Positions 5,722 through 46,477 of a stretch of DNA of 46,576 nucleotides are shown here, piece by piece; the first letter of the stretch is position 1; each line of letters begins with the position of its first letter. The stretch is taken from contig JAGVYS010000001.1 in assembly GCA_018303125.1 (NCBI GenBank), forward strand, positions 69,886 to 116,461. The letters are read 5' to 3'. The stretch is from Candidatus Woesearchaeota archaeon (lineage in GTDB: Archaea; Nanobdellota; Nanobdellia; Woesearchaeales; WJIZ01). Position numbers and translations under genes: made by a program. The notes beneath the pieces are model-generated. The model was given only the letters and a program-made list of their open reading frames with translations, did no database searches and had not been told where the DNA came from.

Positions 5722-6905
5722 GGAATCACAAAAAAGCCCAGGTGACATTATTCATAATCATAGGTCTGCTCCTTGTTATCATAGTTATAGTGCTTATCTT
5801 TATTGCAAAGCTTGTTAATGAGTCACAAGAAAAAAGAAGCACAAAAGAGGCAACAGAAACTTCAGCAAGCCTTCAGCCTCTTTCTGATTATGTTGAATCA
5901 TGCATTGAAACCAGCGCAAAAAAAGCTCTCGAGTTTGTTAGCGACCAGTCAGGTTACATATACACTAACCAGAAAGGCGACAAGCAAAGGCTTGTTGCGG
6001 GATTCTATGTTGAACACCGAGGAAACCAAATTCCTTTCAGGATACAGCCACCTGTATCGGGTGAGATATGCAAGTCAGGAGGAGAATATCCAGTAAAATT
6101 AGAAACGTATCCTTACATAAGTGGCGGGCGAAGGTACGACTATGCTTCTTGTTTTGGAAGAGTAGTGCTATTTAATCTTGAGAGGATTGAGAAATCAATG
6201 GAGAAGTTCATAGAAGGAGACATTGAAGACAGTTCTCGTTGTGATTTTTCAAATTTTAAAGGCCTGAAAATAGACAAGAGGCAATCTACTGTAAACATAG
6301 AGAGCAAGGAATCAAGCACAATTTTTACAGTCAACTATCCATTAAAAGTCACAGACAGCTCAGGTGCAGAATCTTCCCTAAGCAATTTCAGGACAGAGCT
6401 AAAGTTCAGCTTAAATCCGATAATCGAATTTTCAAACACGATAATGCAGAAAGATACTTCAGATCCAAGATACGACATAAAAGATGGAGATAGCAGATTT
6501 TCAGTAAATGTAGTTGAAGTAGCGGGCGGGGACGATATCGTAGTTATTGAGTCACAGAATATCGACTTCTATGGAGAAAAATTCCAAATGATTTTTGCAA
6601 GAAAGAACAGGAAACCGATATTGGAGTTCTACGCAGCCGGCAGTGAATTAGCTGCAAGGGAAGGGGAGCCACTAAGCTATGAAGGAATAATAAATAAGGA
6701 TATAGTTGCCTTAGACCCGGATGAGGATGCAGTAACTATCAGTATTAAAGTGAATAACCTGCAGCTTATAGCTGGTGGCTCATATATAGTAACTCAGGAA
6801 GACTTAGTCTCTGGAGAGATACCAATAACATTGGAAGTTATTGATGATGGCGGGCTTTCAGACTCACAAATTAGCAGCCAGAAAATAGAGGAAACTGCAA
6901 CATGA
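5691..6905 (+). CDS. Prepilin-like membrane protein with Ig/cadherin-like C-terminus
   Basis: Predicted length is 404 residues. The N-terminus reads NHKKAQVTLFIIIGLL and continues as one hydrophobic helix to about residue 41. KKA followed by Q is an archaeal class III (prepilin) processing motif. After it comes a segment PLSDYVESCIETSAKKALEF then SDQSGYIY, which I recognise as a conserved unnamed DPANN family. Residues from about 305 resemble a cadherin or Ig-like domain (LDPDEDAVTI, VIDDGGLSDSQ). I chose ATG 5691 because it has GGGG about 5 nt before it; the frame is open back to 5610, but that would give 27 implausible residues before the signal. The next gene overlaps its stop by ATGA. The outer domain may bind ligand or partner pilins. 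Confidence 0.78.
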   Translation: MDKPNWKIKIRNHKKAQVTLFIIIGLLLVIIVIVLIFIAKLVNESQEKRSTKEATETSASLQPLSDYVESCIETSAKKALEFVSDQSGYIYTNQKGDKQRLVAGFYVEHRGNQIPFRIQPPVSGEICKSGGEYPVKLETYPYISGGRRYDYASCFGRVVLFNLERIEKSMEKFIEGDIEDSSRCDFSNFKGLKIDKRQSTVNIESKESSTIFTVNYPLKVTDSSGAESSLSNFRTELKFSLNPIIEFSNTIMQKDTSDPRYDIKDGDSRFSVNVVEVAGGDDIVVIESQNIDFYGEKFQMIFARKNRKPILEFYAAGSELAAREGEPLSYEGIINKDIVALDPDEDAVTISIKVNNLQLIAGGSYIVTQEDLVSGEIPITLEVIDDGGLSDSQISSQKIEETAT

Positions 6906-9900: not shown

Positions 9901-12900
9901 AGATGGTGACAAAATAACAGGAAACTTTGAAAACAAGGAATACACTGACAGGCAGGAAGCAAGAATAAACATCAAGGAGAAGGGAAGCTATACTTTCTCT
10001 GTTGTATGCGAAGACAAGGCAGGCCTTAAGCCCTTAGTTGTAAGCAAGATTCCAATAATTGTTGACCCAACAAAGGCATTGGAAATAAAGAGCCTTACTC
10101 AAGAATACCAAGATGCAGCAAATGCAGTTCTAAAAGCACAAACAAATAAGAAGGCAAGTTGTGATTTCAGCTTATCTCAGTCAGGTGCATATTTGCCATT
10201 AGGCCAGGCAGACAGCCTCATACATGAAGGCACTGCCCCTGCATCATTTGGTAAGGGAAGTCAAAATGTTTATTTCAAATGCGATACAGGGAAGGAAACC
10301 TCAACAATTTCTGCCAGTTTCTTCGCTGACCCATCACCTCCTGTAATAACGATTCTTGATGATTCCTCGCTGAGGGCAAGCAATCCGAGAGTATCTATCT
10401 ACCCTGACAAGATTTACGTTAAATGGAAGGCAGAAGACCCAGAGACAGGAAATAAAGGAATATCCTATAATTACTCCTTGGTTTCTGATGACACGGTCAT
10501 AGAGTGGACAAAGCTTTCCGCGAGCCTTGTTAAGGACAATTCCTTTGAGGGATGGATTACAGAGAACCATGAAGGAAGACCGCTTGCTCTGGAGACAGGC
10601 AAGACGTATAAGTTCAAGCTGAAGGCTGGAAATGTTGCCAGGTTATGGAGTGCAGCAAAGGATAGCGAGGGAATCAAGGTGGAAATACAACCAGATTATT
10701 CCCTGAAACTCCTTCAGCCTCCTTTTGGTGCAGTCCAGAAGAATGAATTTAAGATTATGATTGGTTCCCTTGTTGACATAGAATGCAGGTACAGCCTTGG
10801 CTATAATGACCCATTCTCTGAGATGCATAGCTTCCCTGAGACAGGAGAAAAAGCACATTCCACGAAAAACGACATATCTGCTCAGGAAGAGCTTCTTTCA
10901 AAAGGAGCAGGCCTTTGGGTTAAGTGCAAAGACCCTAAATCAGGGCAGATAATAGAAAGCCCTCCTTTCAAGATTACTCTTGACTTAAAGGAGCCAAGAA
11001 TAAGCAGCATTTTCAGCATTCCTTCAGGGACTATAGGTGAAAAAGAGGCAGAAGCAGAGATTGTCGCAATAACAGACGAAGAAACAAGGTGCAGGTACAT
11101 AAAGGGCAATCTTGCCGGGGCATTTTCCGGGTTTGACGATGGATTCGGAAAGGAAAACAGGGTATGGGTTAGCCTTAAGGAAGGGCAGAATTCATATTCT
11201 GTTGTATGCGAAGACAAGGCAGGGAGAGTTTCTGAGGCAAGCGTTCTGGCCATAACACTCAATCCTGATGCACCTCTGGCTATTGCATCATTAACAGAGC
11301 AATATCAAGGAGCAATCCCTTACAAAGTATCAATTTCAACAAATAAAAAGGCAACATGCTCTTACGGAAGCATAGCAGGCAGTACCTCTGTTCCATTTGC
11401 AGAAACAGGCAATTTTGTCCATACTACAACTGTTGCATCAGCTTCAGGCGGTGCAAAAAAAGTTTATGTAAGATGCGTAGGAGGCGGCAAGGAGGCCTCA
11501 GCAGAAGTTTCCACAACAATTGACATTACTCCTCCTGTAATAGATTTTGTTGATGATTCATCACAAGTAGAGGGCAAACCAGAATTGACTCCATTCAAGA
11601 ACTCAATATATGTATCATGGAAGGCAACTGACCAGGAGACAGGCAGCCTTGGCTACATATACAATTATTCCCTTCTTAAAAAGGACGGTACAGTTATTAT
11701 AGGATGGAAAACAATAGAAGGCTCTGATAAGGTTTCTCTCAGGGTAACAGAAGACGAAAAAGGAAGGCAACTAGTGCTTGCAGACAATACAGAATACCTC
11801 TTCAGGCTCAAGGCAGGAAACAAGGTAGGGAAATGGACAGAAAGGGCAACAGATAGCAATGGCGTCAAGACTTCATTTTCACTCTATGCTGTTCCTCCTG
11901 AATATGCAGCAGAGCTCCTTTCACCATATAATGGAGCAGCAAGGTCGCAGGAATTTGGCCTCAGGGCGAAGACAGAAAGGAAGCTCGAATGCAAGTTCAG
12001 CCTGGAAAGGGAGAAGCCGTATTCTGCCATGACTCTACTTTCAACTCAAGATGGGTTAATCCACACAGTAGAGAAAATCAGAATAACTGATGCGACTTCA
12101 ATATTTATTGCCTGCAGGGACGAGCAGGCAGGGCCGTACATATCTCCATATACCCTTCATGTTGACAATAGCCCTCCAGAAATATCTCTTTCCTCAGTTC
12201 CTGGCACCATAATAGCTCAAAGCTCTGCAACTGTTACAATAGTTGCAAAATCAAATGAGAATGCAGCATGCAGGTATGACAGGAGAAATGTAGTTTACTT
12301 GGAAATGGAAGGCAAATTCGATGCAGGCTTTGGGAAAGAAAAGAAAGCAGAAATAAGGTTAGGGCAGGGAGAGCACAAGCTGTATGTAATCTGTGAAAAT
12401 GAGGCAGGTGTTCCATCAGGAACAAAGGACATAACTGTAAAGGTTGATAGGAATGCCCAAATGACAATAGAGGACTTAAGCCAGAGATTTTCGCTAGGCA
12501 CTCCTTTGATAAAGCTGCAGACAAACGCAGAGGCTATATGCACATTCGAGTTTAACAACATAAAGGAAACAACCAGTACTTCATCATTTATCCATGAAAG
12601 AACGCTTTCAGGCCTCCGCGATGGCAGTAATGAGATAAAGATTTTCTGCGACAGTACAGAAGGCAAGGAAGCAAGAAGGACAATCTCAATTGTCATTGAT
12701 AAAACTCCTCCAGCAGTTTATGTTAACGACAGCTCAAAGGATTCAGAAGATTCAGAGAAATCACCATTCAAGGATAAGCTTTATGTCATATTTTATGCAG
12801 AAGACAACGAAAGCGGCAGCACAGGAATAACTTTCAATTACTCGGTCGTGAGCGCTCTCAGTGGAAACGCACTTATAAACTGGACGCTGATTGAAAATGT

Positions 12901-14713
12901 AAATGGAGGAAAGTTCTCTGATTATATAGACAAGAACAACAAAGGAGAAACACTTAACCTTTCCGACAATACCCGATATATCTTCAGGGTCAGGGCAAAA
13001 AACAATCTCGGCCTTTGGAGCATTGAAAAATCCAGCGACGGTGTAACGACAGACTTCTCTGTTATAACAAGAGAGGTTACATCCTCTTGCAGCAACAACA
13101 TTAAAGACAGCTCAGAGTCAGGCATAGACTGTGGCGGGGAATGCGGGCCAACTTGCGGTATAGGAAAAGATTGTGACAGCAATAGCGACTGCAGAAGCGG
13201 ATATTGTTCTGATAGCAACAAATGCCAGCAGCCAAGTTGCTTTGATGACGACAAAAACGGCAATGAGACAGATATTGATTGCGGCAGCAGCTGTGGCAAG
13301 TGTGAAAAAGGCAGCGTCTGCAATAGAAACACTGATTGCGATACCGGGAACTGCAGGAACGGCATATGCACAGAAGAAAGTAGCTGCACTAATGGTCTGC
13401 CGGATCCTGGAGAGTCAGATGAAGACTGCGGCGGTATTTGTGAAGCCAAATGCATTGCAGGATATTCATGTGATGTTAACGCAGACTGCGAAACAGGCTT
13501 GGAATGCATTGCAGGTACTTGTGTTGCAGATGAAGCAGAGGAAGAAGATGATTCAGATAGTGATGGCATACCTAATTCCTGGGAAGAAGGCAATGCAGGC
13601 ATGGATAGGGATGACGCCACAGACGCAGAGCTAGACTTTGATGGTGACGGCCTCACTAATCTTGAAGAGTATACACTAGAAACAGATCCAAATAACCCAG
13701 ATTCTGACGGTGACGGATATAGCGATAGCAAGGAGGCCAAGAAAGGAACGAATCCTAAAGACCCCAAAGACAAGCCAGGCAGCGCCTTTGGCATATTCTT
13801 CCTAGTAATCTTCATCCTTCTGGCAGGCTCAGCCATAGGATACTTGGCCTATATGCAGTACTTCAATAAAAAGCCCAAAAGCCCGCCATCCCAGAGGCCG
13901 TTCCAGCCACAGAGACTCATGCCAAGAAGCCCAATGCAGATGCCGCAGCGTAGGCCGCAATTCGTTATGAAGAGGCCTGACCTAAGAAAGCAGCCAATAA
14001 GGCCAGAGAAGCAGAAAATCCCGGATAAGGAAGAGTTTATTCCGCTTTTCGAGCCGAAGGAAGAGAAAAGCAAGGAAGAAGGCATCCTCTCTGCTTCGCA
14101 GCCAAAGGACGAAGTTTTCAAAAAACTCTCTGACATAGTGGGGGAGGGTGCAGCTAAGAGCAAAGAGCCAAAGAAATCAGTAGGCATGGAAAAGGTAAAA
14201 AAAATAGCGAAGGGCAAGAAAAATAAAAAAGGCGAGGCCAGCCAAGTATTTGTATACATAATCACTATAGTGATCATTGGCGTCATTTTTATTTTTGGTT
14301 ACAATTCCATACAGGAGCTGAACAAAAACTCAGAGAAAGTGTCCCAGGTAAGGCTAAAGACAGACATAGAGAATGCAATATCGAGCATAACTCCAGAGTA
14401 TGGTAGCTTTAAGCAGGCTTCAATAAAACTCCCAGGAAGCTACAGCGAAGTATGTTTTCTGAAGAACTTTATATCAGGAAGCTATCCGGAAAATGACTTC
14501 ACAGGCTATCCTTTGATTTTTGATGCCAAGGATACAGGCAAGAACGTTTTTCTTCTGGATGGAAAGAAAAGGATAGTTGATAGTTACACTATAGGTAGCA
14601 TAGATTTTGAGGAGAAGGCAGGCAAAACGCCTAGCCTGAACTGTTTTAAAGGAGAAAGCGGTACGGTCGATATCAAGTTTACCGGCAAAGGCGATCACGT
14701 ATTGATTTCATAG
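6902..14713 (+). CDS. Giant repetitive surface protein fused to a prepilin-like module
   Basis: 2603 residues. In order: a Sec signal peptide (1-26, ending GSASA); a Cys-rich head with CCC clusters to about 140; an Fn3-like domain (about 150-240); more Cys-rich sequence to about 550; Ig-like domains; three tandem copies of a roughly 400-residue unit (about 865-2058). Then come three 48-residue Cys knots of the DCGGxC..C type (about 2062-2215), TSP3/EF-hand Ca2+ repeats (DSDSDGIP, DFDGDGLT, DSDGDGYS, 2216-2290) and a membrane helix (about 2296-2320). A basic Pro-rich, probably cytoplasmic stretch follows, and finally NKKGEASQ plus a second helix (2449-2468) and a 135-residue domain. That tail looks like a stand-alone prepilin fused in frame. 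Start overlaps the upstream stop (ATGA). Likely a Ca2+-stabilised cell-surface stalk or adhesin. Confidence 0.82.
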   Translation: MKYGNYIIAALTFIVFALAFSGSASAVTGCCLNPRQESYQCFTGSLVEESVCCPAGSENYPSDEILSPINSEDCKADYFIKGAECSAQLRCVDVCCCSQPAKAEKTSTVYCDAIGGIKVKIEGSTSTCNIALCNFPSDTTGTEKCDNPLFSPSITQFTARPVTGEKSFDLSWSSSCDASSYSVQRCNADGQGCKDIITTNEKKATDSSNELLWGKEYMYKVSGQYKFGKASTASSKSNLGDIECWGRKESEKFCVYDSNLMERMEYMLANRVHYGIPADTDTAKEFADYVKNKYSAKLNKGFSCDANNKISSPTISCTQNQVCVVENKNTVCKDASSQCRPTNLDEKPFGLYTTKAECYALGYCYYDNSKSIVDKCIACNPKMDCYDYKSSEACTENKCRPDLNCEWKPTIGELGVGVCVNQNADNCNWCDKKGSDGIDASAYNDVFGLCTKEKAEALSTTGNTCELVGDKARNCGMLTCNDIPIAECPTTKPSLGSDNSINPIPNKIYACNLKVCAVMGGECKKDADADGNPDCQDADIDCRKDVFPPEAVLTEQKDIDGVVIGYSISIKDKTSKGDIINPPGAKLRLCINKPGENACPKPDRSQWLQTEDTSLSINGLLLSDKNRQIGISYLGNGDNQIYYYAEDSSHNLGIVKHVTITALEANKRPEIVSINVFGAREVGSIYYTKEKRPAVKIVLREPGAAIQQGTTDFRNADSSQQVTGWQVVGKGNTEYTVSFINNLQNGKYVLTIKPKNTDNKIITREITIRIDNLLPDVRFASPQQNSVTKGEPLRMAISSSRPINITKAEASGKDYSSLFEYAFSESFEKELDIADGKHAFSIVANDYYGNTVNAKLDFTVNNVERPVIELIEPKNGVSQNNNFNLKIKADNEVECKYSVDSTRSDTGFYQNMASFDNAVKGIFHTKNNLRIEGKWPHLLQVWCKDPLWGETIFRYSFTLQVDTTRPEIRVMSFPVSPLAEAPVDLLLVAVSDEGIICSYSDGDKITGNFENKEYTDRQEARINIKEKGSYTFSVVCEDKAGLKPLVVSKIPIIVDPTKALEIKSLTQEYQDAANAVLKAQTNKKASCDFSLSQSGAYLPLGQADSLIHEGTAPASFGKGSQNVYFKCDTGKETSTISASFFADPSPPVITILDDSSLRASNPRVSIYPDKIYVKWKAEDPETGNKGISYNYSLVSDDTVIEWTKLSASLVKDNSFEGWITENHEGRPLALETGKTYKFKLKAGNVARLWSAAKDSEGIKVEIQPDYSLKLLQPPFGAVQKNEFKIMIGSLVDIECRYSLGYNDPFSEMHSFPETGEKAHSTKNDISAQEELLSKGAGLWVKCKDPKSGQIIESPPFKITLDLKEPRISSIFSIPSGTIGEKEAEAEIVAITDEETRCRYIKGNLAGAFSGFDDGFGKENRVWVSLKEGQNSYSVVCEDKAGRVSEASVLAITLNPDAPLAIASLTEQYQGAIPYKVSISTNKKATCSYGSIAGSTSVPFAETGNFVHTTTVASASGGAKKVYVRCVGGGKEASAEVSTTIDITPPVIDFVDDSSQVEGKPELTPFKNSIYVSWKATDQETGSLGYIYNYSLLKKDGTVIIGWKTIEGSDKVSLRVTEDEKGRQLVLADNTEYLFRLKAGNKVGKWTERATDSNGVKTSFSLYAVPPEYAAELLSPYNGAARSQEFGLRAKTERKLECKFSLEREKPYSAMTLLSTQDGLIHTVEKIRITDATSIFIACRDEQAGPYISPYTLHVDNSPPEISLSSVPGTIIAQSSATVTIVAKSNENAACRYDRRNVVYLEMEGKFDAGFGKEKKAEIRLGQGEHKLYVICENEAGVPSGTKDITVKVDRNAQMTIEDLSQRFSLGTPLIKLQTNAEAICTFEFNNIKETTSTSSFIHERTLSGLRDGSNEIKIFCDSTEGKEARRTISIVIDKTPPAVYVNDSSKDSEDSEKSPFKDKLYVIFYAEDNESGSTGITFNYSVVSALSGNALINWTLIENVNGGKFSDYIDKNNKGETLNLSDNTRYIFRVRAKNNLGLWSIEKSSDGVTTDFSVITREVTSSCSNNIKDSSESGIDCGGECGPTCGIGKDCDSNSDCRSGYCSDSNKCQQPSCFDDDKNGNETDIDCGSSCGKCEKGSVCNRNTDCDTGNCRNGICTEESSCTNGLPDPGESDEDCGGICEAKCIAGYSCDVNADCETGLECIAGTCVADEAEEEDDSDSDGIPNSWEEGNAGMDRDDATDAELDFDGDGLTNLEEYTLETDPNNPDSDGDGYSDSKEAKKGTNPKDPKDKPGSAFGIFFLVIFILLAGSAIGYLAYMQYFNKKPKSPPSQRPFQPQRLMPRSPMQMPQRRPQFVMKRPDLRKQPIRPEKQKIPDKEEFIPLFEPKEEKSKEEGILSASQPKDEVFKKLSDIVGEGAAKSKEPKKSVGMEKVKKIAKGKKNKKGEASQVFVYIITIVIIGVIFIFGYNSIQELNKNSEKVSQVRLKTDIENAISSITPEYGSFKQASIKLPGSYSEVCFLKNFISGSYPENDFTGYPLIFDAKDTGKNVFLLDGKKRIVDSYTIGSIDFEEKAGKTPSLNCFKGESGTVDIKFTGKGDHVLIS
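9490..13075 (+). repeat. Three tandem ~1.2-kb coding repeats (Ig-like modules)
   Basis: The units begin at about 9490, 10700 and 11905. They share landmarks in the same order: ECKYS/ECRYS/ECKFS; a CKDP-like box; SYTFSVVCEDKAG or its equivalent; PPVI with DDSS; YNYSLVS; and a LKAGN...W-containing box. Copies 1 and 2 share an exact 26-base stretch at 9998-10023 and 11198-11223, exactly 1200 bases apart; copy 3 has a diverged version near 12384. The third unit is shorter at its end. Confidence 0.85.
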
Positions 14714-33808: not shown

Positions 33809-34525
33809 CTATACATTCCAGCCGCCGCTGACCTTTATGTTTGAGCCGGTTATATACTCAGACTCCTTCCTAATCAAGAATAAGATGGCGTTTGTTATGT
33901 CGCTGTATGATGCATCTCTTCCTTTTGGTATCTTCTCTTCAGGCTTTACGATAGAATTCTCCAAGACACCCGGAGAAACAGCATTTACAGTTATATCGTA
34001 TTTTGCATAAGCCTCGGCAAGGCTCTTTGTGAGTATAAGCACAGAGGTCTTTCCTGCCATATATGGCGTTATCCTAGGCCAGGCCTTTATCAGGTCAGCA
34101 CCGGAATCTGAGATATTTACTATCCTGCCAAAATTCTGCTTTACCATATACGGCAATGCATAATGGCACATGTTGAAAGTCGTTGTTGCTGTTGTCCTTA
34201 GGAGGTATTCCCATTCTTCTGGCGTTACCTTGTCAATTGTCTTTACAAGAAAATTTCCTACATTGTTTATCAGGACATCTATCCTGCCCTTTTTTCTAAT
34301 TGCAGCCTCTACAAGCTTTTTTGCGCCGCCGGCAGTGCTTATGTCAGCTTTTATGCAAAATGAATCGCTTCCAATGCTTCTAAGCTCTTTTTCAGTAGAA
34401 ACAGCCTCTTTTTTGCTTGTGTTGTAATGCACAATGACATCATAACCTTCCTTTGCCAGGGCAATGGATATCGCTTTACCTGTCCGCTTCGCATTGCCCG
34501 TAACAATGGCAGTTCTCTTAATCAT
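33809..34525 (-). CDS. Pteridine-reductase-like short-chain dehydrogenase (PTR1/FolM type)
   Basis: 238-residue SDR with a Rossmann fold. The nucleotide motif is TGNAKRTG (residues 9-16), matching the TGxxxRxG form of pteridine reductases rather than the classical TGxxxGxG. NNVG is at 87-90. IVNISDS places Asp140 where classical SDRs have Ser, followed by Tyr155-x3-Lys159; a D-Y-K triad is the PTR1/FolM signature, though the D-to-Y spacing is two longer. The family reduces dihydropterins with NADPH. It overlaps the PTPS/QueD gene by 8 bases, downstream of folE, which makes a tetrahydropterin product likely. Alternative: a general SDR of fatty acid type. Confidence 0.8.
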   Translation of the reverse strand: MIKRTAIVTGNAKRTGKAISIALAKEGYDVIVHYNTSKKEAVSTEKELRSIGSDSFCIKADISTAGGAKKLVEAAIRKKGRIDVLINNVGNFLVKTIDKVTPEEWEYLLRTTATTTFNMCHYALPYMVKQNFGRIVNISDSGADLIKAWPRITPYMAGKTSVLILTKSLAEAYAKYDITVNAVSPGVLENSIVKPEEKIPKGRDASYSDITNAILFLIRKESEYITGSNIKVSGGWNV

Positions 34526-34952
34526 TGTAAGAAGCAGAGGAATTTGGAGTTTCCCAGACGGTTATATTCTCTAGTTTCATCTTTTTACTCGCAAGCTTTG
34601 GTTTTAGCAACCCGTAAGTATACTTTGCTATATTCTCGGCAGTTGGAACAAAAGGCACGAATATTATTTTCTGGCTGTGAAATTTCCTGAATTGAGGCGC
34701 AAATGGATCATTATCATACATCATGAAACCATGGTCAAGCCTTTCATGTATCTCCTTCATCATGGCTTCCTTGAGGTCTGAAAAATCTATTATCATGCCT
34801 TCATCAGATGCACCTTTCACTCTTACATTCTTTCCAGAAACGCATGCCTCGAAAATATACCTGTGCCCATGAATATTTCTGCATTTGCTCTTATGGTTTG
34901 GGATTCTATGGCCCATGTCTATCTCAATCTTCCGGGTTATAGAATTTTTCAT
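34518..34952 (-). CDS. 6-pyruvoyl-tetrahydropterin synthase / QueD family
   Basis: 144 residues. Zinc ligands His15, His28 and His30 (DMGHRI, NIHGHRY) and the catalytic Cys24 in C-x3-HGH are present. The acid/base region [13 protein letters not shown] and the [10 protein letters not shown] substrate Glu complete the site. Such enzymes act on dihydroneopterin triphosphate, giving either 6-pyruvoyl-tetrahydropterin (biopterin route) or 6-carboxy-tetrahydropterin (queuosine/archaeosine). Sequence alone does not tell; the reductase downstream and the lack of queC or queE nearby favour the first. ATGA overlap with folE. Confidence 0.88.
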
Positions 34953-35485
34953 CTTATCAGGTTAAGGAACTCCGTTCTTGTTGACTCATCCTTGAAGCAG
35001 CCGAGCATGCAGCTTGTCTTCATTACAGAATTCTGCTTTTCAACCCCTCGCATCATCATGCACAGGTGCCTTGCTTCTATCACAACAGCAACACCCTTTG
35101 GCTTAAGGCTGTCCATTATGGCATCTGCTATCTGCGTGGTAAGATTCTCCTGTATTTGCAGCCTTCTTGCAAATATGTCAACAACCCTTGCAATCTTTGA
35201 AAGGCCTATTACCTTTCCATTTGGGACATAGGCAACGTGGCACTTCCCGAAAAAAGGCAGTAAATGATGTTCACAAAGGGAATACATTTCTATGTCCTTG
35301 ACAAGTACCATCTCATCAATCTTAGAACTGAATATTGCGCCATTTATGACATCCTTTGCGATCTTTCCATACCCTCCAGTCAAATACCTGAACGCATCAG
35401 CAGCCCTCTTTGGTGTGTTAGCTAATGTCTCTTTCGGCAGGCTAACATCCAATGCCTTGATTATCTCTTTGTAGCTCTTTTCCAT
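34949..35485 (-). CDS. folE: GTP cyclohydrolase I (FolE type)
   Basis: 178 residues converting GTP to dihydroneopterin triphosphate, first step of pterin synthesis. Zinc ligands Cys71 and His74 ([10 protein letters not shown]) and Cys142 ([11 protein letters not shown]) are all present; [19 protein letters not shown] and the end TSCMLGCF are typical. Type I (FolE) rather than the MptA/FolE2 type more usual in archaea. Heads a three-gene overlapping operon with the PTPS and SDR genes. The TATA element is weak (TTAATAA about 26 nt before the start). Confidence 0.95.
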
Positions 35486-35855: not shown

Positions 35856-36122
35856 ATGTACGACCTAGAAGAGGAAAAAATAATAGCAAAGGTAAATGAG
35901 AAAAAGTGCAAGACAGTGCTTTTGCAGTTTCCTGACGGCCTAAAAACGCAGGCAGGGCACCTTGCCCATAAAATAGAGCAGGAAACAGGCGCTCTTGTTC
36001 TTATATGGTTCGGCTCAAATTTCGGGGCATGCGATTTGCCAATAGGCATAAAGTCGGTGAATATCGACCTTATAGTGGCTTTTGGGCATAATGTCTATGT
36101 CAAGGAGGTAAGGGGATGGTAG
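35856..36122 (+). CDS. dph2: Dph2, N-terminal fragment (frame 1)
   Basis: 88 residues of the diphthamide synthase Dph2, a non-classical radical SAM enzyme that modifies a histidine of elongation factor 2. LLQFPDGLK and SNFGACDLP (the first cluster cysteine) are diagnostic. The frame stops at TAG 36120 just after KEVRG, and the rest of the enzyme continues in the next frame from 36116. A single extra G in GGGG (36112-36115) would join them as KEVRGMVEFMLVPAYY. Confidence 0.82.
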   Translation: MYDLEEEKIIAKVNEKKCKTVLLQFPDGLKTQAGHLAHKIEQETGALVLIWFGSNFGACDLPIGIKSVNIDLIVAFGHNVYVKEVRGW

Positions 36123-36847
36123 AATTCATGCTCGTTCCCGCATATTATAAGGAAGAAGTAAGCCTTAGCAAGGAAGCCCTCTCGGCACTGGGAAATAAAA
36201 AGAACGTTGCGATTTTCGCAAGCGTCCAGTTCATAAAACTTGAAAAGGTAATAGCGCAACTGAAGGAAGCAGGCATAAAGGTAATATCAACACACGGCAA
36301 AAGAACATCTGGAAAATATCAGCTTCTAGGCTGTGACTGCTTCAATAATTCTTTCGCAGATAATGGAATGTTCAATGAGATAGATGCAATTCTCTATGTA
36401 GGCGATGGCATGTTCCATCCAAGGGCATTGCTCCTGGCGCAAAAGGGAATAGGAAAGAAAGTGCCGGTTATACTATATGACCCAATATCAAAAAGGACAA
36501 AGGAGATAAAATTTACGGATATAGAGCATGAAACAAGAAGGTACAGAGCTAACATGCTGAAATACTTAAGCGCAAGAACAATAGGCGTCTTGATTTCTGT
36601 TAAGCCTGGCCAGCAATATCTGAAATTGGCAATAGCACTCAAGGAAAAGGACAAGGACAAGCAAGTATATCTTTTCATTGATGATACTTTCAATTTTGCA
36701 AGCATGGAAAACTTCCCATTCATAGACGTATGGGTGAATACTGCATGCCCCAGAATAGGCTATGATGATTTCCTGAATATGCCAAGGCCGCTTGTTAACA
36801 TAAATGATGCCTTGGCTCCAGAGGAGGCATTGAGAAAATGCAGCTGA
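36116..36847 (+). CDS. dph2: Dph2, C-terminal part (frame 2)
   Basis: 243 residues holding the remaining Dph2 domains with the second and third cluster cysteines, LLGCDCFNN and NTACPRIGYDD. Together with the fragment before it, the total of about 330 residues equals a normal archaeal Dph2. ATG 36116 has AAGGAGGT ending 6 nt upstream, the best ribosome site seen here, so separate translation as a coupled second subunit is possible. An error or programmed frameshift is equally open. taw1 starts within its last 10 bases. Confidence 0.85.
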   Translation: MVEFMLVPAYYKEEVSLSKEALSALGNKKNVAIFASVQFIKLEKVIAQLKEAGIKVISTHGKRTSGKYQLLGCDCFNNSFADNGMFNEIDAILYVGDGMFHPRALLLAQKGIGKKVPVILYDPISKRTKEIKFTDIEHETRRYRANMLKYLSARTIGVLISVKPGQQYLKLAIALKEKDKDKQVYLFIDDTFNFASMENFPFIDVWVNTACPRIGYDDFLNMPRPLVNINDALAPEEALRKCS

Positions 36848-38483: not shown

Positions 38484-38810
38484 TTACATCTGGCCAAGAT
38501 TATTTATCTTTGCAGCAACAATGAAGTCATTCTCGCTTAGGCCGCTTATTGCATGTGTATACAATGTAAGATTTACTTTCCTATAATATATCAATATGTC
38601 AGGGTGGTGTCCCTCAGAATCAGCTATCTCAGCAACCTTGTTTACAAAATCAATTGATTTCATGAAACTTTCAAACTTGTAATCCTTAGAAAGCTTTCCA
38701 TCCTTTAGCTCCCATCCCTTTACTTCCTTGAGCATCTCCCTTGCCTTTCCGATTACTATAGGGGGCACTCCTCCCTCGCAAGGCACGCATTTCTTTTTAG
38801 AAATTTCCAT
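38484..38810 (-). CDS. phhB: Pterin-4a-carbinolamine dehydratase
   Basis: 108 residues. EGHHPDILIYYRKVNLTLYT then His86 and GLSENDFIVAAKI are the family signature, with the catalytic His68-His69-Pro70-Asp71. The enzyme dehydrates 4a-hydroxytetrahydropterin to recycle tetrahydropterin cofactors. It begins one base after the ilvD stop, so it is the last gene of the leu/ilv operon, an unexpected place. Two N-terminal cysteines (CVPC) may bind metal. It complements the folE-PTPS-SDR operon 3 kb away. Moonlighting forms of this family exist, so the role is inferred. Confidence 0.9.
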   Translation of the reverse strand: MEISKKKCVPCEGGVPPIVIGKAREMLKEVKGWELKDGKLSKDYKFESFMKSIDFVNKVAEIADSEGHHPDILIYYRKVNLTLYTHAISGLSENDFIVAAKINNLGQM

Positions 38811-38811
38811 T

Positions 38812-40494
38812 TTAGCTTGTTATTGCTCCCTTGCTTGCGCAACTGACCAATTTTGAATACTTGTACAAAGCACCATTTTTGTATTTTATTTCCTTTGGCT
38901 TCCAGCTTTTCATCCTCTTCTTTATCTCAACATCGCTTAGCTTTATGTCAAGCCTTTTTCTCTCTGAATCAATGGAGATTATGTCACCGTCCCTTACTGC
39001 AGCTATCGGTCCGCCTTCCTGAGCTTCAGGTGCAGCATGCCCTATGACCATGCCCCAGCTTCCGCCAGAAAACCTTCCGTCTGTTATAAGAGCAACATCC
39101 CTGTGCAATCCAAGCCCTGCAAGCGCCGATGTTGGTGCAAGCATCTCCCTCATCCCAGGCCCGCCTTTTGGGCCCTCATACCTTATGACAATTACATCCC
39201 CCTTTTTTATATCTCCTTTCAAAATTGATTTTAAGCAGCTTTCTTCGTCTTCGAATACCCTTGCAGGACCCTCGTGCTTTACAATGTTAAGGCCGCATGT
39301 TTTCAGGACAGCACCGTCAGGCACAAGATTCCCTTTCAGAACGCTTATAGGCCCAACTTCCTTCAAAGGCTTTTCTAAGGAATAAACAACATCCTGCCCA
39401 TCAAGCTTAACTTTTACATCCTTAAGGTTTTCAGCAACAGTTTTTCCAGTTACTGTCAGGCAATCTCCATGCAACAGGCCTTTATCAAGGAGCATTTTCA
39501 TTACCATCTGCACTCCTCCAACTTTTCCCAAATCTGTCATCACATATTTGCCTGCAGGCTTTAAGTTGCCTATAGTTGGCGTAGTGTCATGGAAATAATT
39601 GAATTCGTCAACTAAAAGCCCGACTTCTGCTTCCCTAGCAAGCGCAAGAAGATGTAAAACAGCATTTGTGCTGCCTCCCAATGCCATGACAACTCTTATC
39701 GCATTCTCAAAGGCGTTCCTTGTCATAATTTGCCTTGGAAGTATGTTCTTCTTTACCAGTACAACAAGAGCCTTTCCTGCTTCTTTGCACATCTCTTCCA
39801 TCTTTCTGTCTTCTGCAGGAAGCGAAGCATTCCCAGGCATGCACATTCCTAATGCTTCAATGGCAGATGCCATAGTATTTGCAGTATACATCCCGCCGCA
39901 TGCTCCTGCCCCCGGGCATGCATTGCACTCTATGCCCTGCCTTTCCTCCTCGCTTATCTTTTTGGCGGTAAAAGCTCCAACAGCTTCAAATGCAGAAACT
40001 ATGTCAACATCCTTTCCTTTATGCTTTCCGGGCTTTATGGTGCCACCATAGATGAAAATGCTGGGTATGTTGAGCCTTGCCATTGGCATAACGCTTCCCG
40101 GAATTGTCTTGTCGCAGCCTCCTATTGCAAGGATTGCATCAAACTGATGTCCTCTTGTCACAAGCTCTATTGTATCTGCAATAGCCTCTCTTGATATCAA
40201 TGAGCATTTCATTCCTTCATGCCCCATTGCTTCACCATCGGTAACAACGAAGGTATTATATTTTATTGGGAATCCGCCCGCATCAGAGATGCCTTTTTTC
40301 GCATGAATTGCAAGCTTGTCTAGATGCATATTGCACGGCGTAACTTCGCTTCCTGCAGATGCTACTCCAACAATCGGTTTCGAGAAATCCTCGTCCTTCA
40401 TGCCGATTGCACGAAGCATTGCCCTATTTGGCATTCTCTCTATTCCTTCTGTCATTAGGCTGCTTATCTTGTTTAGTTTGTTTTTTTCCATCAT
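38812..40494 (-). CDS. ilvD: Dihydroxy-acid dehydratase
   Basis: 560 residues, normal length. Converts dihydroxy acids to 2-keto acids in valine and isoleucine synthesis. Fe-S ligands appear in [16 protein letters not shown] and [31 protein letters not shown] is the C-terminal signature. Overlaps leuD by ATGA, and phhB follows within a base. Confidence 0.97.
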
Positions 40495-41096
40495 TTGAAT
40501 CCCTTCACATAAGGCAGGCTATTTGCTTTTTTTTCAATGAGGCTCCTGCTCTGCAGCAATTCTGCCGTGGAGTCCCAAAGCCCATTAATGAGCGAATATC
40601 TTGATGCATCATTTATCTCTATGTTTAGGCTGAAATCGCCGTATTGGACTATGTTGTTTATCAAGTCAATCTTTATTACTGTATCTGGCTTCTCCTCTAC
40701 AAACATCATCAGGTTTTCTATGGCATCATATGGGGCAGTAACAGTGGGTATTCCCATTACAGCACAATTGCTAGCGAATATCTCAGCAAAGCTCTCTCCT
40801 ATTATTGCCTTTATGCCTGACCTTAATAGGGATTGCGGCGCATGCTCCCTTGATGAGCCACAGCCGAAATTCTTGTTAACTATCAATATCGAGCCTTTGA
40901 GAAACTTCTTTTCATTCATCGGGTGTTTCTTAGGCTTTTTCTGCTCATCAAAGCGCTCGTCATAAAATGCATATTTTCCAAGCCCTTCAAAAGTAACGCA
41001 CTTCATGAATCTTGCGGGAATAATCCTGTCTGTGTCTATATCATTCCCAGGCAAAGGTATGCCTTTCCCCTCGGCTATCTCTATTTTGTTAGGCAT
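40491..41096 (-). CDS. leuD: 3-isopropylmalate dehydratase small subunit, bacterial-like LeuD
   Basis: 201 residues. [20 protein letters not shown] and [15 protein letters not shown] are the key swivel-domain motifs. Archaeal LeuD is usually about 165 residues; this longer form with YAFYDERF is the bacterial type. Forms the enzyme with LeuC, whose gene it overlaps by 8 bases. Suggests that the operon has a bacterial origin; a tree would decide. Confidence 0.94.
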
Positions 41097-42477
41097 AATC
41101 CCTCACATCTACTATTTCACCGTTTATCGCAGCAGCTGCAACCATGGCAGGGCTCATCAAAATTGTCCTTCCTAAAGGAGAGCCTTGCCTACCTATGAAA
41201 TTTCTGTTTGAGGAAGATGCGCATATCTCTCTGCCCTTAAGCTTGTCAGGGTTCATGGCAAGGCACATTGAGCATCCGGCAGCCCTCCATTCAAATCCTG
41301 CATCAACGAATATTTTGTCCAAGCCTTCACTTACAGCCTGCTTTAAAACCTGCTTTGAGCCAGGAACAACAAAAGCTCTAACTTTGGCTTTCTTGCCTTT
41401 CACTATCCTTGCTGCTTCCCTTAAATCAGTTATCCTGCTGTTTGTGCATGACCCCACAAAAGCTACATCTATCTTTTTGCCATTTATTTTCTCTCCTTCT
41501 TTGAATCCCATGTGTTTAAATGCATGCGAGGCAGTAGCCTGCTCATGGACCGGAAGATCCTTTATCACTGGCATGCTCTGTGATATACCTATGGCTTGGC
41601 CAGGGTTTATGCCCCAAGTAACCATAGGCTCAATCTCGTCTGCATTTAGCTCTACTATGTCATCATATTCAGCATCTTTGTCAGAGGCTATAGATTTCCA
41701 GAATTCAACAGCAGCATCGAAGTTCTTCGGAGCATACTTCCTGCCCTTCAGGTAGTCAAAAGTGGTCTTGTCAGGATTTATGTATCCGCATCTTGCTCCT
41801 CCTTCTATGCTCATGTTGCAGATGCTCATCCTTGCTTCCATGCTAAGGTTGCTTATTGCTGTTCCAGCGTACTCATAAGCATAGCCTATTCCTCCTTTTA
41901 CACCTAGCATTTCAATTATCTTGAGTATAATGTCTTTTGAGTACACTCCCTTATGCAGCTTTCCTTTCACATCAATTTTCCTTACCTTTGGCTTGTCCAT
42001 TGCCATTGTCTGGGTAGCAAGCACATCCCTTATCTGCGAAGTACCTATTCCAAATGCTATGGCACCGAATGCACCATGAGTAGATGTATGCGAATCACCG
42101 CAAGCTATTGTCATGCCGGGCTGAGTTAAACCAAGCTCAGGCCCTATTACATGCACTATCCCTTGGTAATCTGAATCTAGCCCAAACAAAGATATTCCAA
42201 ACTCCTTGCAGTTCTTCTCAAGTGCTTTCATCATCTCTTCTGCAAGCTCATCTTGGAAAGGCCTTGTCTGGTTCTTTGTCGGGACTATATGGTCAACAGT
42301 AGCGAATGTCCTTTCAGGATACATCACTTTTAGGTTCCTCTCCCTCAACATATGGAATGCCTGCGGTGATGTGACCTCATGTATTAGGTGCAGCCCTATA
42401 AATATCTGGTCCTGCCCAGAAGGCAATTTCTTTACTTTGTGCATATTCCATACTTTGTCGAATAATGTGCTGCCCAT
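41089..42477 (-). CDS. leuC: 3-isopropylmalate dehydratase large subunit, bacterial-like LeuC
   Basis: 462 residues, aconitase fold. Starts [17 protein letters not shown], then [27 protein letters not shown] and [20 protein letters not shown]. Cluster ligands are in FVGSCTNSR and [10 protein letters not shown]. The length and N-terminus are those of bacterial LeuC; the archaeal form (HacA-like) is near 420. Isomerises 2- to 3-isopropylmalate in leucine synthesis. Starts 3 bases after ilvN. Confidence 0.96.
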
Positions 42478-42480
42478 TTG

Positions 42481-42957
42481 TTATCGTGTGCTTATTCCAG
42501 TTATACCTGTCCTGCTTATATCCTCTATCTTGAAATTGGACATTTCTTTCAGGAACTCTCCTATCTTCTCAGGTTCTGCCATCATCTCTATTACAATATA
42601 ATTCTGCCCAGAGGATATTATTTCGAAGCCATATTTTTTTACATACCCTTCAATTTTTTCCTTGTCTTTTTTTTCAACAAGAAATTTTGCCAGGCACATC
42701 TCCCTGAAAAAAGAGGAGTTTTCAGGAAGTTCTCTTATCTCTATTACATCCAGGAGCTTGTCGCATTGCTTTTCAACTTGATAGAGCGTCTCATCATCAG
42801 CTTCAAGCGTGAAAACAATCTTGCTTACCCCCTGCTTCTGTGTCTTGCCTACTGTTATAGTGTCTATGTTATACCCCCTTCTGGAGAACATCCCTGTTAT
42901 CCTGTTCATTACTCCTGGCTCGTCTATGACAAGCATTTCTATTACATGCCTTTTCAT
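42481..42957 (-). CDS. ilvN: Acetolactate synthase small (regulatory) subunit
   Basis: 158 residues. An ACT domain begins at once: MKRHVIEMLVIDEPGVMNRI then TGMFSRRGYNIDTITVG, the valine-binding fold, followed by a second ACT-like half. I chose ATG 42957, overlapping the ilvB stop (ATGA); the frame is open 33 codons further upstream within ilvB, but that extension has no family likeness. Confers feedback control on IlvB. Confidence 0.95.
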   Translation of the reverse strand: MKRHVIEMLVIDEPGVMNRITGMFSRRGYNIDTITVGKTQKQGVSKIVFTLEADDETLYQVEKQCDKLLDVIEIRELPENSSFFREMCLAKFLVEKKDKEKIEGYVKKYGFEIISSGQNYIVIEMMAEPEKIGEFLKEMSNFKIEDISRTGITGISTR

Positions 42958-44696
42958 TTTTGCCTCTTGGCAAGCACATCCTGCCATGTCTGCTTGAAGA
43001 CAACATTTCCCATTATTATCTCTTTGAGAGATGATGATGGCGGCAACATTGGCCATATGCCTTCTTCCTTGTCAACCATAGTATCAACTATCATTGTCTC
43101 ATCTGATTTTATTGCATTTTTTATTGCTTCCCTGTACTCTGATTTCCTCGTTACAGTGATTCCGGGCAAATGATAGGCATTTGCCATTTTTTCAAAGCTC
43201 GGGTTCTTTGTAAAAGCCACTCCTGAATACCTCTTGTTCTGGAAGGTCTCTAGCCACTGCCTTACCATTCCGAGGTAGCTGTTGTTCATTATTATCGGGA
43301 CAACTTTTATCTGCTCTTCCTTTATTGTGGCAAGCTCCTGCGAAGTCATCTGGAAGCTTCCATCTCCGTCTATGTCAAAAACATTCACATCAGGCCTGGC
43401 AACTTTCGCTCCCATTGCACATGGAAGCCCATATCCCATTGTTCCTGCTCCACCACTGGTAAGCCATGTCCTGGGCTTGTTAAGCGTCAGGAAATGCTCT
43501 CCGAACATCTGGTGCTGCCCAACTCCTGTTGTAACTATATCATTCTCTTTTAGCATGCCTGACAATTCCCGCACGCAGAACGCTTGAGTAAGCCCGCCTT
43601 TCTTTACATCTCTTTCATGCTGGCTCTCCACAAGATGCTTTAATTCATTAAGCCTTTTTCTCCATTCACTGCTCCTGTTAGCTATCTTGCTGCCTTCATG
43701 CACAAGTATATTTGCCAATCCTATCATGCACTTCTTTGCATCTCCGATTACTGCAACAGCAGCCTTTACATTCTTGCTTATCTCAGCAGGGTCTATGTCA
43801 ATATGGATTATTTTTTTGCCTTCCTGGAAAACTTTAGTATCCCCTGTAACCCTGTCAGAGAATCTTGACCCTATGGCTATAAGCAAATCTGTATTTATTA
43901 TTGCATAATTTGCGTGCTCCTGGCCGTGCATTCCAGCAACACCCAAGCTTAAGGGATGTGTCTCCGGAAATACTCCTTTCCCCATTGTGGTTGTTGCAAT
44001 AGGGCAGTTTATAGTCTCAGCTAATGCCAAAAGCTCCTTGCTTGCATTTGAAGATATTACTCCTCCACCAGCCAATATAACTGGCCTTTCAGCCTTCAAA
44101 ATCAGCTCAGCAGCTTTCTTCAAGGCAAGCTTGTCAGGTTCAATCTTTAGCTTTAGTCCTATTACTTCAATATCCTTTACTATTGGCACATCAGCTTCAT
44201 TCAACTGTATGTCCTTAGGCAGGTCTATGTAAACAGGTCCTTGCCTTCCACTGCTTGCTATCTTGAAAGCCTTTGCTATAATCTCAGATATCTTCTTAGT
44301 GTTCCTTATCTGGAAATTATGCTTTGTTATTGGTGCTGTTATGCCTATTAAGTCAGATTCCTGAAATGCATCATTTCCTATTAGGCGTGTCGATACTTGT
44401 CCGCCTATTGCTACAATAGGGACGCTATCCATGTACGCATCAGATATTCCTGTAACTAGGTTTGTTGCACCAGGCCCAGAGGTGGCGACGCATACTCCTG
44501 TTTTCCCGCTCGCCCTTGCATAGCCTTCTGCAGCATGCGCTGCACCCTGCTCATGCCTAACCAGTATATTCCTTATTTCCTTCTTGTAATCATAAAGTGC
44601 ATCGTAAAAAGGTATGATTGCACCTCCATTTATCCCGAAAATAGTGTCAACTCCCTGCTTTAGCAGTGACTCTACAGCAATGTATGATCCTTTCAT
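42954..44696 (-). CDS. ilvB: Acetolactate synthase large (catalytic) subunit
   Basis: 580 residues, ThDP-dependent, first common step of valine, leucine and isoleucine synthesis. Catalytic Glu49 is in VRHEQGAAHAAEGYARASG; GPGATNLVTGI follows; the ThDP-Mg motif is GDGSFQMTSQEL...NNSYLGMVRQW. Full length. Overlaps leuA by ATGA upstream and ilvN downstream, so stoichiometry is set by translational coupling. Confidence 0.97.
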   Translation of the reverse strand: MKGSYIAVESLLKQGVDTIFGINGGAIIPFYDALYDYKKEIRNILVRHEQGAAHAAEGYARASGKTGVCVATSGPGATNLVTGISDAYMDSVPIVAIGGQVSTRLIGNDAFQESDLIGITAPITKHNFQIRNTKKISEIIAKAFKIASSGRQGPVYIDLPKDIQLNEADVPIVKDIEVIGLKLKIEPDKLALKKAAELILKAERPVILAGGGVISSNASKELLALAETINCPIATTTMGKGVFPETHPLSLGVAGMHGQEHANYAIINTDLLIAIGSRFSDRVTGDTKVFQEGKKIIHIDIDPAEISKNVKAAVAVIGDAKKCMIGLANILVHEGSKIANRSSEWRKRLNELKHLVESQHERDVKKGGLTQAFCVRELSGMLKENDIVTTGVGQHQMFGEHFLTLNKPRTWLTSGGAGTMGYGLPCAMGAKVARPDVNVFDIDGDGSFQMTSQELATIKEEQIKVVPIIMNNSYLGMVRQWLETFQNKRYSGVAFTKNPSFEKMANAYHLPGITVTRKSEYREAIKNAIKSDETMIVDTMVDKEEGIWPMLPPSSSLKEIIMGNVVFKQTWQDVLAKRQK

Positions 44697-46225
44697 TTTC
44701 TTCCCCTCTTGAAGGCAAGGGACTTGTTTATTCCCTTCACGAGCGCAGATGCGCTTGCCATGACTATATCCTCATTTATTCCGTCTGCGCTGAATACGTT
44801 CCCTTGCTTATCTTCGATTTTTATTGTTACATTTGCCAATGCATCAGTCCCGCCTGTTATTGCCTTTAAATTATATTCCTTAAGCTTTATGTGAGGGTCT
44901 ATCAGGCTGAAGATTGCATGCGAGACAGCATCAACAGGGCCAAGTCCTCTTCCCTTTCCTGTCTTTTCCATTCCCTCTATTGTAATCTTTACCTCAGCTT
45001 CCGGAGTAACCTTGTTTCCTGCAATCACTTTTACTTCCTCTAGCTTTACAATTTCCTCTTCCTCTGAAAGCTTCCCTATCATGTCATTTGTTATGGCTAT
45101 TATGTCTTCTTTCATAACTTCCTTCTGCTTGTCAGCTAGTTCTTTCACTTTTTTTCTTATCTCTGATACCTGCTCAGTGTTAAGGTCATATCCTAGTTCC
45201 TTAAGGACTTTTTCGACAGCATGCTTTCCTGAGTGCTTTCCTATCACAAGGTTTTCCCCTGCCCACCCTATCTCTTCCGGGTCCATTATCTCATAAGTCT
45301 CCTTTGAGCTTATTACTCCATGCTGATGTATCCCAGCTTCATGCGCAAAGGCATTCCGTCCAACTATTGCCTTGTTTCTCTGGACATTTATGCCTGTAAG
45401 CTGCGACACCATTTTCGAGGTAGGGTAAATCTCCTTGGTGTTTATGCCTGTGAAGTATCCCTTGAAAAATTCCTTCCTTGTTTTTATGTTCATTACCACT
45501 TCCTCAAGTGAGCAATTCCCGGCCCTTTCACCTATGCCGTTGACAGTGCATTCTATCTGAGTCGCACCAGCTTTTATTGCAGCAAGGCTGTTTGCAACCG
45601 ATAATCCAAGGTCATCATGGCAGTGGACGCTTATGACTATTTTTCTGGCCTCATGCACTTTCTCGAATACTTCCTTTATTCTCTTAGCGAATTCCTCAGG
45701 TTGTGCATATCCCACGGTATCTGGTATGTTTATAGTAGTTGCGCCTGCCCTTATAGCCCCTCTGACAACATCGCACATATAATCAATGTCGGTCCTTGCA
45801 GCATCCTCAGGAGAGAACTCAACATCCTTGCAGTAAGATTTTGCGTGTTTTACTGCCTCTATGGCCATGTTCAATACTTCCTCCTTTGATTTTCTGAGCT
45901 TTTTTTCACGGTGGATTTGAGATGTAGCGACAAAAGTATGTATCCTCGGCCGGTTTGAGTACTTTATAGCTTCCCAGGTCCTGTCAATGTCTTCCTTAAT
46001 TGCTCTCGACAATCCACATATTATTGGGCCTTTTACTTTCTGTGCTATAATCTTGACAGCCTCAAAATCCCCATCAGAGCTTATAGGGAAGCCTGCCTCA
46101 ATTACATCTACTCCAAGCTTTGAAAGCTGTTTTGCTATGACAAGCTTTTCCTGTATAGTTAACGAAGCACCCGGGCTTTGTTCCCCGTCCCTTAATGTTG
46201 TGTCGAAAATGATTATTTTTTGCAT
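44693..46225 (-). CDS. leuA: 2-isopropylmalate synthase
   Basis: 510 residues. FDTTLRDGEQSPGASLTIQE opens the TIM barrel; HCHDDLGLSVANSLAAIKAG and GNCSLEEVVM hold metal and acetyl-CoA sites; the C-terminal 120 residues are the leucine-binding LeuA dimer domain. Committed step of leucine synthesis. A citramalate synthase is the main alternative; context and regulatory domain favour LeuA. AAGGTAG lies about 5 nt before the ATG, and the 160-nt leader upstream contains a Val/Leu-rich leader peptide and hairpins, so regulation by attenuation is likely. Confidence 0.95.
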   Translation of the reverse strand: MQKIIIFDTTLRDGEQSPGASLTIQEKLVIAKQLSKLGVDVIEAGFPISSDGDFEAVKIIAQKVKGPIICGLSRAIKEDIDRTWEAIKYSNRPRIHTFVATSQIHREKKLRKSKEEVLNMAIEAVKHAKSYCKDVEFSPEDAARTDIDYMCDVVRGAIRAGATTINIPDTVGYAQPEEFAKRIKEVFEKVHEARKIVISVHCHDDLGLSVANSLAAIKAGATQIECTVNGIGERAGNCSLEEVVMNIKTRKEFFKGYFTGINTKEIYPTSKMVSQLTGINVQRNKAIVGRNAFAHEAGIHQHGVISSKETYEIMDPEEIGWAGENLVIGKHSGKHAVEKVLKELGYDLNTEQVSEIRKKVKELADKQKEVMKEDIIAITNDMIGKLSEEEEIVKLEEVKVIAGNKVTPEAEVKITIEGMEKTGKGRGLGPVDAVSHAIFSLIDPHIKLKEYNLKAITGGTDALANVTIKIEDKQGNVFSADGINEDIVMASASALVKGINKSLAFKRGRK

Positions 46226-46297
46226 TTTATCTACCTTCCTGCATTGGTTTTTATTAATTTTTGTATCTAATCAATTGCGTTTCAAGAATGAATTTCC

Positions 46298-46323
46298 AGC
46301 CCGAATAAAACACGATTCGGGCT
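46298..46323 (-). terminator. Attenuator-like hairpin in leuA leader
   Basis: AGCCCGAAT and ATTCGGGCT form a perfect 9-bp stem with an 8-base loop. The stem begins on the last base of the leader-peptide stop codon, so a ribosome there would cover its 5' arm. No clear U-tract follows at once, so it may act on transcription through pausing, or on translation of leuA. Confidence 0.6.
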
Positions 46324-46385
46324 TATAGCAGAACCAGTACCAAAACCAGAACAACAGATAATGTAATGGTACTGTTTTTTATCAT
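46323..46385 (-). CDS. Val/Leu-rich leader peptide upstream of leuA
   Basis: 20 residues: MIKNSTITLSVVLVLVLVLL. The last ten codons are GTT GTT CTG GTT TTG GTA CTG GTT CTG CTA: five Val and five Leu in a row, with Leu9, Ile2 and Ile7 before. The ATG lies about 28 nt after a TATA box, the distance seen for the leaderless genes here, so the mRNA probably starts with it. It ends in the hairpin described at 46298 and is followed, 97 bases on, by leuA. This is what a ribosome-mediated attenuator needs; slow decoding when valine or leucine is short would stall the ribosome. A short membrane peptide is the alternative reading. Confidence 0.68.
   Translation of the reverse strand: MIKNSTITLSVVLVLVLVLL
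46335..46374 (-). promoter_or_regulatory. Inverted repeat inside leader-peptide codons
   Basis: CAGTACCA (46367-46374) and TGGTACTG (46335-46342), exact complements on the minus strand, bracket the first Val/Leu codons. The second arm lies within the TTG GTA CTG codons. A translating ribosome would melt this stem, so it can compete with other folds of the leader. TGGTTTT in the same stretch could also pair with AAAACCA just before the leuA ribosome site (46245-46251). Confidence 0.5.
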
Positions 46386-46409
46386 ATCATTAGAGTATTA
46401 ACTAATTTA

Positions 46410-46417
46410 TATTTAAA
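46410..46417 (-). promoter_or_regulatory. TATA box of leu/ilv operon
   Basis: TTTAAATA (minus strand) predicts a start near 46385-46387, at the ATG of the leader peptide, 160 nt before leuA. Upstream to 46477 there is nothing else recognisable. Confidence 0.7.
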
Positions 46418-46477
46418 CATATCGGAAAGTTACGGCTGTAAAGTAAACGTCACTAAAAAATAGGCTTAAAAAAGAAA

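Follow-up and report, generated by a model that had tools for sequence, protein, structure and literature searches.

A candidate Val/Leu leader peptide upstream of the leu/ilv operon in a Woesearchaeales archaeon and related leaders in DPANN archaea

In bacterial leader-peptide systems, an antiterminator arm lies directly behind the stop codon of the leader. The enterobacterial leu, ilv, trp and his attenuators join such a hairpin arm to a short ORF containing codons for the end product, placed ahead of the biosynthetic operon, and the archaeal locus described here shares all of these features. It differs from the enterobacterial attenuators in having an archaeal TATA promoter and a probably leaderless ORF whose last codons form the run, as well as in lacking both a terminator hairpin with a U-tract and a match in Rfam. 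In haloarchaea, a conserved RNA known as the leuA-Halobacteria motif precedes leuA; haloarchaeal leuA was not found among the plasmid records searched.

The closest described design is the actinobacterial LEU element, in which an ORF with Leu codons is followed by a region, from stop codon to leuA, that is capable of forming a pseudoknot and has no obvious terminator (PMC1262725). In the LEU element the Leu run forms a base stem with the leuA Shine-Dalgarno (SD) sequence, whereas the archaeal leaders exhibit no such excess pairing against a synonymous-codon null; moreover, the LEU element has been described for leuA only (PMC1262725), whereas the amino acid specified by the archaeal leaders varies with the gene. 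A Leu-rich peptide also precedes the branched-chain operon (ilv) of Staphylococcus aureus and is described as an attenuator, in this case in a bacterium (PMC5794164). For archaea, a 2021 study of transcription stated that neither transcription attenuation nor antitermination had a known example (PMC8448881). Attenuation is likewise absent from a 2021 review of how transcription and translation are coupled in archaea (PMC8116511). The literature that we searched, mostly open access, yielded no archaeal leader-peptide attenuator, and earlier reports may exist.

The leader and the operon in the Woesearchaeales window

The window is the whole 46,576-nt stretch of Woesearchaeales DNA analysed here. 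On its minus strand, a TATA box (TTTAAATA, 46410..46417) is located 32 to 25 nt 5' of the ATG of a putatively leaderless short ORF (MIKNSTITLSVVLVLVLVLL, 46323..46385), which comprises 20 codons and a stop. Judged only by the spacing to the TATA box, the ATG at 46385 is probably a leaderless start. Codons 11 to 20 (46326..46355) are an uninterrupted run of Val and Leu codons, in order GTT GTT CTG GTT TTG GTA CTG GTT CTG CTA, and constitute the proposed sensor of charged tRNA-Val and tRNA-Leu. Inside the ORF, CAGUACCA (46374-46367) can pair with UGGUACUG (46342-46335) to give an 8-bp stem (46335..46374, minus strand). A 9-bp hairpin, denoted P1, has the arms AGCCCGAAT and ATTCGGGCT and the U-rich loop CGUGUUUU (46298..46323, minus strand), and begins on the last A of the leader stop codon. 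All of these parts had been listed in an initial annotation of this DNA, along with the leu/ilv operon behind them, and each can be read directly from the sequence. The leader region of the window folds better than shuffled sequence (z=-2.3), and the leader ORFs described below show, collectively, a modest folding advantage over their shuffles (Stouffer Z -4.6).

Across 2.56 million six-frame codons, representing about 95% of the genome, a run of at least ten Leu/Val codons occurs a single time, in this leader. When the 160 leaderless short ORFs that precede genes were ranked by their content of branched-chain codons, the window leader came first. The archaeal character of the genome is apparent from a gene for FttA/aCPSF1, and from RadA- and Orc1-like proteins that are readable in the window. 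No SSU rRNA was found in the genome bin.

The operon downstream of the leader has the order leuA-ilvB-ilvH-leuC-leuD-ilvD, and all six products score above curated NCBIfam cut-offs. The first gene, leuA (44693..46225, minus strand, with its ATG at 46225), encodes a 2-isopropylmalate synthase of the bacterial type (TIGR00973, 681.8 bits against a cut-off of 598.7) and is preceded by a Shine-Dalgarno-like GGAAGG (46234..46239). It is followed on the same strand by genes for the large and small subunits of acetolactate synthase, ilvB (42954..44696, TIGR00118) and ilvH (42481..42957, TIGR00119), and by leuC (41089..42477, TIGR00170), leuD (40491..41096, TIGR00171) and ilvD (38812..40494, TIGR00110).

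Other genes of the window deserve mention in their own right. At the end of the operon lies a gene for 4a-hydroxytetrahydrobiopterin dehydratase (38484-38810), and genes for FolE (GTP cyclohydrolase I), a protein of the 6-pyruvoyl/6-carboxytetrahydropterin synthase family and a pteridine-reductase-like SDR are clustered at 33809-35485; the FolE cluster and the dehydratase may give this archaeon a pathway to tetrahydrobiopterin or a folate-type pterin. Dph2, of diphthamide synthesis, is broken into two ORFs that overlap (35856-36122 and 36116-36847) and match consecutive parts of TIGR00322, a split that reflects either a frameshift or a sequencing error. An ORF of 2603 codons (6902-14713), adjoined by other membrane-anchored ORFs, appears to encode a large protein that is secreted or exposed at the surface.

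Leaders in relatives and the amino acids they specify

We searched for LeuA in 60 relatives, in 353 genomes of the order, which span at least 88 families, and in 243 genomes of the phylum, and then read the upstream regions; in a scan of named genomes, the matches were dominated by bacterial LeuA. By our count, a short ORF at TATA distance with a terminal Leu/Val or Ile run is present at about 49 of 59 LeuA-type loci. These leader-bearing loci span dozens of families, and three of them come from named genomes. Of 49 leaders, 45 have a TATA-like hexamer 5' of the ATG, with a median start at -31. When a fixed ORF definition was applied to both strands, 34 such ORFs were recovered from 0.49 Mb of LeuA-type loci, compared with one from 2.96 Mb of control loci. 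Examples include MESASKIGLLNVLLVLVVLLVLV (L002), METKVALSVVVLLLVLVLLV (L007) and MANTNLGKYSVLSLLALLLLLLLLL (L129). Leaders also occur beyond the order, in two members of the same class (MEIAKSLNFSRDILVIGILLSIIILL in L270 and MKPGVEANCSRILLALLIL in L271), and two named genomes, one labelled Diapherotrites (L031) and the other Nanohalarchaeota (L033), carry them as well. About ten LeuA-type loci are without a leader, among them L014, L024, L028, L029, L115, L273, L274, L276 and L277; one of these, L115, is a close leuA.

Several loci have unusual arrangements. At L129 (genome G167), the interval from about 255 to about 100 nt 5' of leuA contains a tandem duplication of about 77 nt; the duplicated unit takes in the last part of the Leu run together with the leader stop codon and the hairpin. 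At L125 (genome G314), an ORF of 147 codons and unknown function lies between leuA and an upstream Val/Leu leader (MKPKATISIALVLVVLVLVLLV). At L008 (genome G052), two successive Leu-run ORFs, LEILLLLSL and MLFLKLLLLLLL, are located 5' of leuA.

The amino acids specified by the leaders follow the pathway encoded downstream. At least two Val codons were found among the last 12 leader codons in 13 of 13 cases in which ilvB follows leuA, compared with 1 of 19 otherwise (Fisher p=4e-8, without correction for shared descent). Leaders ahead of the citramalate synthase paralogue (cimA), the enzyme for the first step to Ile, carry Ile runs, as in MKTAIAIKRGIFLAIAIIIIII and MIAQNIRNIIIGSIIAIIIIII; the citramalate synthase copy in the genome of the window, which scores above the TIGR00977 cut-off, likewise has an Ile leader (MAVDYMSTSKFSGISIIIS). 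For trpE, leaders with terminal Trp codons are present in 3 of 17 trpE-bearing genomes (PYFWCFWE, ELWFIWD and NWRWN). Two his operons that start with hisI (hisI-hisG) have leaders with HHHH or HHH, and in an order-wide search for His patterns chance matches predominated. Outside the biosynthetic operons, the leaders MQKNLLLLLL and MQNNLLLLLL lie immediately 5' of two leuS genes, Leu-rich leaders are found near two further leuS loci, and L270 has a second leader (MRLTQNVLVLLLVLVVALL) 5' of a small gene and leuS.

The median number of synonymous Leu codons used in a Leu run is four, with a minimum of three, so the constraint lies on the amino acids and not on a DNA repeat. If the leaders were not translated, it would be difficult to account for codons that match the pathway for Leu, Val, Ile, Trp and His alike. 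The initial annotation had also suggested that the leader was possibly acquired together with bacterial-like leuCD. Such an acquisition is unnecessary, because leaders also precede distant LeuA types, cimA, trpE, hisI and leuS, in many families.

Structures between the leader and the gene

Hairpins resembling P1 recur behind the leader stop codon. For 38 leaders, the best hairpin starting within 9 nt of the stop was compared with dinucleotide shuffles, which gave a combined Stouffer Z of -13.8, and 25 of the 38 were individually significant (p<=0.05). The hairpin starts 1-8 nt 3' of the stop, and this conserved position is one at which placement of a ribosome would alter folding. Neither of the two His leaders has a post-stop hairpin. 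The P1 loops are rich in U (0.42 vs 0.27, p=3e-4). As a separate observation, ATATTCT is over-represented in the P1 loops of several families. Strong conservation of leader and hairpin in relatives is the pattern that the initial annotation had named as support for its reading, and the codons moreover change along with the pathway.

Pairing of the P1 loop with sequence farther downstream, denoted P2, is enriched across the leaders (Fisher p=4e-4, Stouffer p=0.007). In the window, the candidate P2 (46277..46314, minus strand) joins the loop sequence GUGUUUU (within 46314-46307) to GAAACGC (46283-46277) and is weak (p=0.087). In one lineage, comprising L122, L126, L127, L129, L272 and L275 (five Leu leaders and one Ile leader, hereafter f10-type), P2 extends over approximately 12-14 bp and is located about 30 nt 5' of the ATG. 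Covariation in the f10-type P2 is 0.318, compared with 0.218 +/- 0.029 in shuffles, none of which reached this value in 500 attempts, and 83% of cells are paired, compared with 33-58% in slid controls; L126 stands two columns out of register in this alignment. In the f10-type leaders, full-length P1 and P2 probably compete, and a P1/P2 pseudoknot is possible. The window also contains CAUUCUU (46284..46290, minus strand) 3' of P1, which motif comparison assigns to the class CAU[UC][GC][UC]U; this class is present in 10 of 40 leaders, compared with a mean of 0.8 and a maximum of 4 in shuffles. CATYGTT, for which this class is the wider pattern, is over-represented just behind the post-stop hairpin in several families.

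Features of a terminator were sought in the same regions. In most lineages the interval from P1 to the gene holds no further conserved structure (Z about -1.3). No U-tract is located 3' of the window hairpin, and T5 or longer was found before the gene in only about one third of 33 leaders, at scattered positions. Some cimA leaders are separated from the gene by just 29-32 nt, so a terminator hairpin would have no room there. Rfam scans of the window and of 16 related loci gave no family match, to the T-box or to any other, and Thr_leader scored 16 bits where 55 are needed.

Occlusion of the gene start was assessed as well. The gene-start region is unstructured across the leaders (Z=-0.3), and the codon runs exhibit no excess of pairing with the gene start over a synonymous-codon null. 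Modelled accessibility of the SD sequence in stalled, stop and free states did not rise consistently on stalling, being higher in only 13 of 38 leaders. On the strength of the accessibility models and the unstructured gene start, general masking of the SD or start codon as the output was rejected.

Proposed mechanism and alternative readings

Together, these sequence comparisons identify a short ORF, a match of its codons to the downstream pathway, the promoter geometry, a post-stop hairpin and, in one lineage, P2. From them we infer that the leader ORF is translated and that ribosomes stall in it, as well as the direction of the effect. We consider it highly likely that the window element exerts leader-peptide control, with ribosome position on a leaderless mini-ORF reporting the supply of charged tRNA-Leu and tRNA-Val, and leader-peptide control by tRNA charging is very probably a feature of DPANN archaea. 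When amino acids are plentiful, the ribosome would pass through the run, reach the stop and cover the 5' arm of the hairpin; under amino acid shortage it would stall upstream, within the run, leaving the hairpin free to fold. The state of the hairpin, and in some lineages of the competing P2, would then set the output of the leu/ilv operon. Several points count against this model: the run abuts the stop codon, so that stalled and terminating ribosomes would be at most ten codons apart; modelled SD accessibility does not rise on stalling; a second conserved structure is missing in most lineages; P2 is weak in the window; and some LeuA-type loci, L115 among them, have no leader.

The output may be exerted on the nascent transcript. 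FttA prefers U-rich RNA (PMC11616081), and coupled ribosomes have been proposed to exclude FttA (PMC11616081, PMC8116511); our leading guess is that P1 shields its U-rich loop from this termination factor, FttA/aCPSF1. The more general form of this proposal, in which Leu, Val, Ile, Trp and His, and leuS, would be subject to such sensing throughout DPANN archaea, with a ribosome on the leaderless mini-ORF switching the hairpin, which would shield a U-rich site or expose it to FttA, and FttA terminating transcription prematurely without a terminator hairpin, is put forward tentatively, as a possibility that we would not yet favor.

A different output, also a guess, would be initiation of leuA in those leaders where the hairpin loop pairs with the SD sequence. 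In such translational attenuation, a terminating ribosome would open P1 and the strand released from the loop would pair with the SD or start codon, and stalling would leave the SD free. Complementarity between loop and SD or start was found in L121 (TATCCTC/GAGGATA, p=0.007), L123 (p=0.028) and L018 (p=0.037), the overall enrichment of pairing between loop and downstream sequence (Fisher p=4e-4) is of the kind that it predicts, and inspection by eye of the trpE leader L287 shows pairing of CTATATTCT with AGAATATGG, a segment that contains the start codon. Against these cases stand the location of the f10-type P2, about 30 nt before the ATG, pairing of the codon run with the gene start that does not exceed the null, the unstructured gene start and the flat response of accessibility to stalling, and we regard this mechanism as rather unlikely.

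The region might instead act as an RNA that binds a protein or ligand, with an ORF of little importance, as in the actinobacterial LEU element, which has the same parts and in which codon mutations left regulation undisturbed (PMC1262725). The conserved loop and downstream motifs (ATATTCT and CATYGTT) and the possible pseudoknot would suit such an RNA, but the correspondence between codons and pathway over five amino acids would be unexplained without translation, and this reading appears improbable.

Slightly less probable still is a classical bacterial transcription attenuator, in which alternative hairpins would end in an intrinsic terminator and a U-tract before leuA. The order of parts is that of the enterobacterial leaders and the hairpin sits directly behind the stop codon, like the bacterial antiterminator arm, but the U-tract, a conserved second hairpin and a match to an Rfam leader are all missing and some cimA gaps are short; we therefore do not assign the element to the terminator-based class. 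The initial annotation had described a bacterial-style Val/Leu attenuator in an archaeon, and what endures of that description is a leader peptide, predicted to sense Val and Leu, behind a leaderless archaeal promoter; in the strict sense the term is not supported, since no terminator hairpin, consistent U-tract or general SD masking was found. Finally, a functional membrane micropeptide, to which the hydrophobic tails of about ten residues rich in Leu, Val and Ile might point, was rejected as very improbable because the tails follow the pathway, with Trp and His tails among them and Val tracking ilvB, and because the leuS leaders have only ten residues (MQKNLLLLLL) and the rest of the peptide is poorly conserved.

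If leader-peptide control of the kind proposed here is widespread, archaea would control biosynthesis through the position of the ribosome, and these leaders would provide a natural assay for transcription-translation coupling and for FttA. The leader codons alone could also help to assign amino-acid specificity to genes where small archaeal genomes are still poorly understood.
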